The notes under the pieces were generated by a model. That model made no database searches. It was not told the origin of the DNA and saw only the letters and a list, made by a program, of their open reading frames with translations. A program made the translations under genes and the position numbers. Positions 37,039 to 38,283 of a stretch of 64,000 nt of DNA are shown one piece after another. Source of the stretch: a virus; IMG/VR virus record IMGVR_UViG_3300009164_000054, positions 1 through 64,000 of that record, one strand, 5' to 3'. Every line of letters starts with the position of its first letter. Position 1 is the first letter of the stretch.

Positions 37039-37542
37039 CTACATTTTATTTATATAAGATCTATTTGCAGATATATCACGTATTGTTGCATAAGGTATAT
37101 CATACTCTATAGATAAATATTTCAAATCTAACTTTTCTTTATTAGTTCTTCTTAATGAGATTATATTATATATCTGAGTAACTAAAGTAATATCAAATTG
37201 TCTATTAGGTGGTACATGTCCTTTTTGAAACTTTTTACCCTCATCTACTACTAATCTACCTTTAGCTTTACAATCTTGCATATTATCTTTCTGTGTACCT
37301 AAAAATAAATGATTAGGATTTACACATTTTCTGTTATCACATGTATGACAAACTTTTAATGTATTATCTGTGATATTACCGTAAATTAGCTCATATGATA
37401 ATCTATGAGAACCATGTGTCTTATCTTTTGTTTTAAATGCACCGTATCCATTTGATCTACATGATGCTGTCCATTCCCAACAATCATTCTCTGATTTGAT
37501 ACTTACTTTATCCCAGAATCTTTTAATTTGTTCTTCAGTCAT
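37039..37542 (-). CDS. HNH homing endonuclease (HNH_3 type)
   Basis: A 167-aa protein: FWDKVSIKSENDCWEWTASCRSNGYGAF (NUMOD4-like start), GSHRLSYELIYGNI, then VCHTCDNRKCVNPNHLFLGTQKDNMQD, a canonical HNH_3 core, and a C-terminal helix-turn-helix (LSIEYDIPYATIRDIS). It lies between the tRNA and the tRNA-like element of the RNA gene cluster, a typical landing place for such genes. Confidence 0.9.
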   Translation of the reverse strand: MTEEQIKRFWDKVSIKSENDCWEWTASCRSNGYGAFKTKDKTHGSHRLSYELIYGNITDNTLKVCHTCDNRKCVNPNHLFLGTQKDNMQDCKAKGRLVVDEGKKFQKGHVPPNRQFDITLVTQIYNIISLRRTNKEKLDLKYLSIEYDIPYATIRDISANRSYINKM

Positions 37543-37557
37543 AATATAATTATTTTG

Positions 37558-37606
37558 CCACAGGGATAAGAATTGAACTTACATTTACATACCATTATGC
37601 CCTGTG
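37558..37606 (-). tRNA. 49-nt tRNA-like element without an anticodon arm
   Basis: CACAGGG and CCCTGTG form a perfect 7-bp acceptor. A T-arm-like GTAAG-TTCAATT-CTTAT lies before its 3' strand, and a D-loop-like CATAATGGTATG follows its 5' strand. Only 17 nt separate acceptor and T arm, so the anticodon arm is missing. Its 5' end directly abuts the CCA of the tmRNA. It may be a decayed tRNA or a processing signal for RNase P. Confidence 0.6.
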
Positions 37607-37938
37607 TGGTGGAGGTGGCGGCATACGATAGCCGCGTCCAAATTACGTTCATCAATACAATTTATACAGCTTATTTAGGGTCAAGCTCAGCTTAACGATC
37701 CACCACTCTGTTTAATCTAACAGAGAAATCTTCATTAATTTAGGCTGCTACACCAAGATCAGTATCTACATTCAATAATGAGAACACTTTGTTCATGTTA
37801 GCTTCGATTTGTGCGTTTGCTCCTAGAGCCACTACACGAGAATTGTTTTTGCCATTTAATTAAATTCACCTTAGTTTACAGTTATCTCTCTGGCTGATTG
37901 TATTAATTATTGGTAACCTGTCAAATCCAGTCACCCCC
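37607..37938 (-). ncRNA. ssrA: Phage-encoded transfer-messenger RNA (tmRNA)
   Basis: The 5' end reads GGGGGTGACTGGATTTGACAGG, the standard tmRNA opening, and the 3' end CCACCTCCACCA. GGGGGTG and CACCTCC give a 7-bp acceptor with one G-T pair, and CCA is encoded. The mRNA-like part follows TAGTG with a GCT resume codon and a 29-codon frame ending ...LGVAA and TAA. Then come a TCTCTGTTAGATTAAACAGAG hairpin and the TTTGGACGCGGC lead to the T arm. The T arm is unusual (GCGGC/GCCGC with loop TATCGTAT). Likely role: rescue of stalled ribosomes during infection. Length 332 nt. Confidence 0.85.
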
Positions 37939-38095: not shown

Positions 38096-38176
38096 CTAAA
38101 TGTTTTTTACAGATAGACTGGGACACATTACTACTTGCTGAGAACTCATTTGTGTTGTATATGCAGAAATTCTCAT
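38096..38176 (-). CDS. Possible 26-aa peptide
   Basis: A short frame coupled by ATGA overlap to the 36-aa frame upstream. Supported only by this overlap. Confidence 0.25.
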   Translation of the reverse strand: MRISAYTTQMSSQQVVMCPSLSVKNI

Positions 38177-38283
38177 ATCTTCATCTCATTATCTTTCTCA
38201 AGGATAACAACACATTCTACATCTCTGTAGACATCTTTATGTAAACACACTACTATAGCCAAGTCTTTTAACGCAGACCTCAT
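38173..38283 (-). CDS. Possible 36-aa protein
   Basis: MRSALKDLAIVVCLHKDVYRD...LEKDNEMKI has a reasonable mix of hydrophobic and charged residues. A TACCTTTG element, matching TAnnTTTG, lies about 20 nt upstream. The same DNA can form hairpins around 38270-38290, so it may instead be part of a structured RNA. Confidence 0.4.
   Translation of the reverse strand: MRSALKDLAIVVCLHKDVYRDVECVVILEKDNEMKI

Follow-up and report, generated by a model that had tools for sequence, protein, structure and literature searches.

A tRNA-like element without an anticodon arm abuts the tmRNA CCA in a virus resembling crAss-like phages and may act as an RNA processing mark

Introduction

Cut marks with a tRNA-like fold are already known. 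In the mascRNA and menRNA of MALAT1 and MEN-beta, and in the t-elements and tRNA punctuation of mitochondria, such a fold lies directly after a functional RNA, and tRNA-processing enzymes read it to form the 3' end of that RNA. The viral locus analysed here likewise has a tRNA-like element, referred to below as the mini element, directly after a tmRNA, although here the cleavage is only predicted. The known cases are eukaryotic or organellar and are longer, whereas the mini element is from a phage, is 48 nt long and has no anticodon arm. The upstream RNA also differs: here it is a tmRNA, and the predicted cut would complete its CCA.

Bacterial and phage tRNA-tRNA dimers and polycistronic tRNA operons resemble the mini element in having no or few nucleotides after the CCA, and in these transcripts a single cut by RNase P completes the 3' end of the upstream RNA; the downstream partner in our locus differs in being non-decoding. 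Artificial minimal RNase P substrates (pATSer-type hairpins and minihelices; PMC11221534) have the same 12-bp stack of acceptor and T-stem and also lack an anticodon arm, whereas the mini element is natural, retains a D-loop remnant and would lie inside a phage transcript. In its substrates, bacterial RNase P touches the acceptor and T-stems alone and clamps the elbow where the D- and T-loops meet (PMC11221534, PMC4810234), measuring along the stack (PMC4810234); the premise of the initial annotation of this locus, that RNase P recognises an acceptor plus a T arm, agrees with both of these studies.

Two further comparisons are relevant. In tmRNAs with group I introns in the T-loop (PMC11915505), as at this locus, a mobile element has invaded the tmRNA 3' end and the RNA has been spared; two relatives (L020, L278) are of this type. 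The present locus differs in being intron-free, in having an HNH gene after the tmRNA and in having its tmRNA T-arm replaced. Phage tRNAs of the tRNA-Leu type (class II) share the D-arm TGGCGGAATTGGTAGACGC and the T-arm with a set of tRNA-like elements, the GATTGAG family, that is described below; this family differs from them in having no canonical anticodon arm and a middle that varies in length and sequence. Nothing on point was found in the open-access literature for phage tRNA-like elements that lack an anticodon arm, and a limited search of that literature did not find a family of tRNA-like RNAs with a hypervariable anticodon domain.

Results

The DNA analysed, here called the window, was the first 64 kb of a 90,622-base IMG/VR virus record. 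Judged by sequence, its tmRNA and the flanking regions resemble those of crAss-like phages of Bacteroidota (phi14:2, cr128_1). The tmRNA gene (37938-37607, minus strand) was in the standard one-piece form and scored 72.8 bits against RF00023 (gathering threshold 47) across the full model (1-374), with a tag region at about 37850-37740 and an encoded CCA at 37609-37607, both on the minus strand. A permuted two-piece tmRNA was excluded, since the RF00023 match was full-length in the standard form. Upstream of the tmRNA, the non-coding region 38130-38245 was approximately 79% identical to phi14:2 and is possibly another conserved RNA.

The initial annotation had placed a 49-nt tRNA-like element immediately after the tmRNA CCA. 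The sequence and the RF00023 boundary confirmed this position, with a gap of 0 nt, and the 5' end of the element adjoins the mature 3' end expected for the tmRNA; the element proper is 48 nt long (37606-37559, minus strand), and position 37558 is a discriminator-like G. On the minus strand, the tmRNA ends in CACCTCC-A-CCA and is followed by CACAGGG, CATAATGGTATG, TAAAT, GTAAG-TTCAATT-CTTAT, CCCTGTG, G, CAAAATAATTATATT and the ATG of the HNH gene. The acceptor (37606-37600/37565-37559, CACAGGG/CCCTGTG) had seven of seven Watson-Crick pairs, as first described, and the T-arm (37582-37566, GTAAG-TTCAATT-CTTAT) had five of five pairs, one of them G-U, with a loop that fits TTCRANY. Acceptor and T-stem together give 12 stacked base pairs that start at the base after the CCA. 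A D-arm remnant of 12 nt (37599-37588, CAT-AATGGT-ATG), which had been missed initially, forms three base pairs and a loop, AATGGT, with the GG needed for contact between D-loop and T-loop. It is joined to the T-arm by a 5-nt linker (37587-37583, TAAAT). The element therefore has a 7-bp acceptor, a 5-bp T-arm with TTCRANY and a D-loop GG, all of which are tRNA features.

The reported lack of an anticodon arm was borne out: only 17 nt (the D-arm and the linker) separate the acceptor from the T-arm, and the arm of 5 bp with a 7-nt loop that completes the RF00005 cloverleaf was absent. A tRNA model match with a full anticodon arm was sought with ARAGORN and Rfam, and none was found; neither ARAGORN nor RF00005, even at E≤10 over 2 kb, reported a tRNA at 37559-37606. 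The 3' RCCA was also absent, as G73 (37558) is followed by CAAAA, giving G73-C74 and then AA (GCAA). The RC at 73-74 was also present in the tRNA-like elements of the clade (AC in 42/65). A 3' RCCA helps bacterial RNase P but does not strictly define its substrates. One explanation for the missing arm is that the tRNA is interrupted or split, its anticodon being supplied by splicing or by a second piece. Group I introns are frequent at this locus in relatives (L020, L278, L005); however, no group I intron (RF00028) was found in the window, in contrast to the tmRNA T-loops of L020 and L278, and the two halves of the 48-mer are contiguous and leave no room for an intron. The sequence largely refutes this explanation, and we consider it extremely improbable.

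The probability that such an element arises by chance was estimated with a strict scan of both strands, in which an element of 38-60 nt had to have an acceptor with all seven pairs Watson-Crick and a T-arm with five pairs and a TTCRANY loop. In Markov-1 shuffles 0.005 elements were expected per window, compared to the one observed, which was located at the CCA; when the T-stem was relaxed to at least four pairs, the expectation was 0.067 per window. When the 60 nt that follow the CCA were shuffled 400,000 times, no element arose that started at the first base. A wider scan (40-140 nt) of the 90.6-kb record gave only two matches, the mini element and the element beyond the HNH gene. These values make a chance hairpin scarcely credible, despite the AT-rich sequence and an overall fold z-score of only -2.3 relative to shuffles.

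Folding, which had been proposed as a check, gave a divided result. In the energy model, the acceptor stem had a pair probability of 0.94-1.0, even in the context of the whole tmRNA, and the T-arm had a probability of approximately 0.14 and lay outside the minimum free energy structure; the D-stem probability was only 0.11. The difference was small: the minimum free energy was -11.1 kcal/mol, compared to -10.6 kcal/mol for the best structure containing the T-arm, so that the model favours an extended hairpin by about 0.5 kcal/mol. Because the model ignores the elbow contact and modified bases, we regard the instability of the T-arm as a mild counterpoint.

To place the locus in context, the window was compared with four syntenic phage contigs (L032, L026, L019, L014), whose tmRNAs are 84-90% identical to that of the window. 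The close relatives have a T-arm of GTGGG-TTCGAAA-CCCAC with a canonical T-loop (GGTTCGAA) and an unencoded CCA; a CCA was encoded in 0 of approximately 70 readable tmRNAs of the clade. In the window, the tmRNA 3' end (37607-37641, minus strand) consists of the T-arm GCGGC-TATCGTAT-GCCGC, the acceptor CACCTCC, A73 and CCA, and this 35-nt stretch occurs with 100% identity at an unrelated viral locus, L146. Since this end differs from that of the relatives and equals that of L146, we concluded that it was exchanged together with an insertion. The T-arm of the window tmRNA is found in 28 distinct viral tmRNAs, some of the standard and some of the permuted form. Its alternative loop, UAUCGUAU (window 37635-37618, minus strand), keeps the U-C-G and has the 54/58 partners swapped; carriers include L045-L050, L055, L127, L146, L006-L008 and L011.

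The insertion itself lies between 37610 (A73 of the tmRNA) and 36926 (A73 of the second tRNA-like element), a segment that is missing in all four syntenic contigs. At the junction in relatives (L032, L026, L019), CCTCCA is followed directly by CAGCAGTTACTTG or CAGCAGTTGCTTG. In the window this direct junction between tmRNA A73 and a structured RNA is split by an insert that begins and ends with a tRNA-like element and contains a gene for an HNH endonuclease of 167 aa (37039-37542, minus strand; PF13392 HNH_3, E=3e-8), which does not occur between the flanks in L032, L026, L019 or L014. By sequence comparison, the apparent event is insertion of an HNH cassette between the tmRNA and the structured RNA, with exchange of the T-arm and CCA end of the tmRNA.

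A distance of 16 nt separates the mini element from the start of the HNH gene. The element could in principle be a scar or target site of the homing endonuclease at the DNA level, a hairpin without a role as RNA. Exchange of the whole tmRNA 3' end is what homing with co-conversion predicts. However, a homing site needs no 7-bp acceptor, TTCRANY T-loop or D-loop GG, and no tRNA or tmRNA gene was found beside those HNH relatives whose flanks were checked. We judge this explanation very improbable.

Other mobile elements were observed at the same position. Group I introns in the tmRNA T-loop were present at L020 (2989-2766, minus strand), L278 (4221-3998, minus strand) and L005 (1602-1871), the last being cr128_1, which has an antisense ORF at the end of the intron. 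The introns of L020 and L278 identify the tmRNA 3' end as a repeated target of mobile elements, in agreement with the four T-loop intron sites known in tmRNA genes (PMC11915505). In Buchavirus loci (L006-L008, L011; near 1471-2060) the tmRNA was apparently permuted and had the TATCGTAT T-arm; annotated Buchavirus records have an antisense endonuclease ORF between the two tmRNA pieces, and RAGATH-9, RAGATH-20 and hatchet motifs lie near this tmRNA.

The second tRNA-like element, at the far end of the insert (37021-36926, minus strand; 95 nt plus A73), scored 37.9 bits against RF00005 and belongs to the GATTGAG family. The ARAGORN call of tRNA-Thr(agt) at this position is probably spurious. Members of the family were located in the window and at L346 (1990), L262 (3465), L278 (3488), L310 (1682), L331 (13677) and L372-L389. 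They have a constant acceptor (GATTGAG/CTCAATC), D-arm (TGGCGRAATNGGTA) and T-arm (ACAGGTTCRANTCCTGT) and a hypervariable, unalignable, non-decoding middle, for a total length of 68-133 nt; ARAGORN called nothing in 16 of 19 aligned members. With introns allowed, ARAGORN labelled nearly everything, with scattered identities, and this output was excluded as evidence. In six loci (L372, L373, L374, L376, L387, L388) a conserved piece, GTAAYAACGGAARAACCTAAGAGAGATTRACAAAAACTCCGTACA, abuts the 5' end of the GATTGAG element and is likely to be another structured RNA of the array.

A scan of 1.03 Mb of loci from the clade found 45 distinct tRNA-like elements that were not called by ARAGORN, compared to two in shuffles; part of this set had been baited with the 3' sequence of the GATTGAG family, which inflates that family's share of the 45, and the other acceptor types were unbaited. 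The acceptors differ in sequence yet pair (GATTGAG/CTCAATC, AGTCAGG/CCTGACT, TCCAGAG/CTCTGGA, GGTCAAG/CTTGACC, AGCAAGG/CCTTGCT, AATCGGT/ACCGATT), and among 30 elements picked by D-arm and T-arm alone, a set that includes canonical Leu-type tRNAs, the acceptor was fully paired (7/7) in 28. A canonical anticodon arm was present in three of the 45 uncalled elements (chance level 0.04), as against 13 of 20 ARAGORN tRNAs. The mini element is one of the 45 and has the features of this non-decoding family, namely a paired acceptor, a T-arm, a D-loop GG and no canonical anticodon arm; by sequence it falls outside the GATTGAG and AGTCAGG subfamilies.

Two other tRNA-like elements lie close to a tmRNA. 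In L278 the start of a 68-nt element is exactly 3 nt beyond tmRNA A73, with CTA in place of CCA, and in L299 a 47-nt element without an anticodon arm lies 26 nt after the tmRNA. Short anticodon-less tRNA-like hairpins with an AATGGT loop were also observed at L209 (6211-6251, plus strand; 41 nt) and L238 (1074-1032, minus strand; 43 nt), placed between protein genes of unrelated phages. The same scan found no element in the cultured relatives phi14:2 and FpV4, and hence no laboratory phage that carries one; in the metagenomic, uncultured gut crAss-like phage cr128_1 it gave one weak match, probably due to chance.

A conserved structured RNA (36925-36780, minus strand) that begins CAGCAGTTACTTGACG follows the second tRNA-like element. 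Across 19 distinct loci, this RNA (CAGCRGTTRCTTGA...) had seven covarying base pairs, with changes on both sides, and no Rfam family matched it. At all 19 loci its first base directly follows A73 of a tRNA-like 3' end, which was a member of the non-decoding family in 11 cases, a tmRNA in seven and another acceptor in one. These junctions, together with the abutting element in L278, led us to conclude that a boundary can be marked interchangeably by the tmRNA or by a non-decoding element; the mini element occupies one such RNA boundary. The RNA block is closed by an intrinsic terminator-like hairpin (36757-36732, minus strand; AAAGCCTCTAGGAAACTAGGGGCTTT with a T-rich tail). No terminator was found between the tmRNA and the HNH gene, and the first one lies after the structured RNA.

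Searches for further copies of the mini element were carried out in IMG/VR and GTDB with the exact and the degenerate 48-mer. They returned only an identical copy, on a second IMG/VR contig that carries the region at 100% identity, and two pattern matches in unrelated MAGs; blastn in phages gave only weak matches in coding regions. Since only one sequence variant is known, the 48-mer has no covariation of its own. The initial annotation had left two readings, a processing signal or a shrunken tRNA; the geometry was upheld, and both readings fit it and do not exclude each other. Decay is the main rival to a punctuation role: a phage tRNA gene beside the tmRNA would have lost its anticodon arm by deletion, leaving a pseudogene, perhaps one that arrived with the HNH cassette and has not yet eroded. 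An ordinary tRNA has D-, T- and acceptor arms of this kind, the single known variant would fit, and normal tRNAs lie a few nucleotides after other TATCGTAT tmRNAs (L352, L354, L358). The acceptor CACAGGG is unrelated to the larger family, and for this reason the mini element may be an independent, decayed tRNA. In contrast, the acceptor stem is perfect and the spacing exactly zero; similar non-decoding elements are common in related phages, with acceptors kept by compensatory change; L278 provides a second tmRNA-abutting case; and, apart from the two exact-pattern matches in unrelated MAGs, GTDB genomes contain no full-length tRNA with this acceptor and T-arm. On balance we regard decay as unlikely, while taking it seriously.

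Discussion

The reading that we favour, at slightly better than an even chance, is that the mini element is a non-decoding tRNA-like punctuation mark at which RNase P would cut at the tmRNA CCA. In this reading we infer co-transcription, cuts by RNase P and by 3' processing, and selection for processing. One transcript would run from the tmRNA through the mini element, the HNH mRNA, the second tRNA-like element and the structured RNA to the terminator. Host RNase P would recognise the 12-bp stack of acceptor and T-stem and the elbow of D- and T-loops, and would cut between A76, the last base of the tmRNA CCA, and C1 of the mini element, so that a single cut would complete the CCA end of the tmRNA. 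At the second tRNA-like element, 3' processing after A73 would give the 5' end of the structured RNA, and the two marks would keep the tmRNA and the structured RNA separable from the HNH mRNA. The parts that RNase P uses, the stack and the D- and T-loops, are kept in the mini element, and what has been lost is the anticodon arm, which RNase P does not need. Three points keep confidence in punctuation moderate: the element has no RCCA tail, only one variant is known, and an extended hairpin competes with the T-arm. The mini element is not generally needed, since relatives make their tmRNA without one.

Processing may be a side effect of some other role of the non-decoding family. The mini element could be a free non-decoding RNA with a job of its own, such as a decoy for host tRNA-cutting defences or for enzymes that modify or charge tRNAs, its end processing being incidental. 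The contrast between the hypervariable middle (68-133 nt) of the GATTGAG family and its constant arms resembles an arms race where anticodon nucleases act. Nevertheless, the position at the CCA and the junction rule (19/19) favour a role at RNA boundaries, and the mini element has nothing for an anticodon-directed enzyme because its middle is absent. We consider such an independent role improbable.

Extended beyond this locus, the punctuation reading is more tentative, at somewhat below an even chance. In crAss-like phages of aquatic bacteria, a non-decoding tRNA-like class with constant acceptor, D- and T-arms and a missing or hypervariable anticodon domain may punctuate arrays of structured RNAs around the tmRNA, with the 48-mer as its most reduced form, an RNase P mark that would finish the CCA. 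If this is true, reduced tRNAs would serve phages as punctuation within RNA operons, an arrangement described chiefly in mitochondria and in a few long RNAs of eukaryotes. Phages would also possess an entire class of tRNA-like RNAs that is overlooked or mislabelled in standard annotation, as with the 'tRNA-Thr' of the window, and a homing-type insertion at the tmRNA 3' end would be tolerable without an intron.
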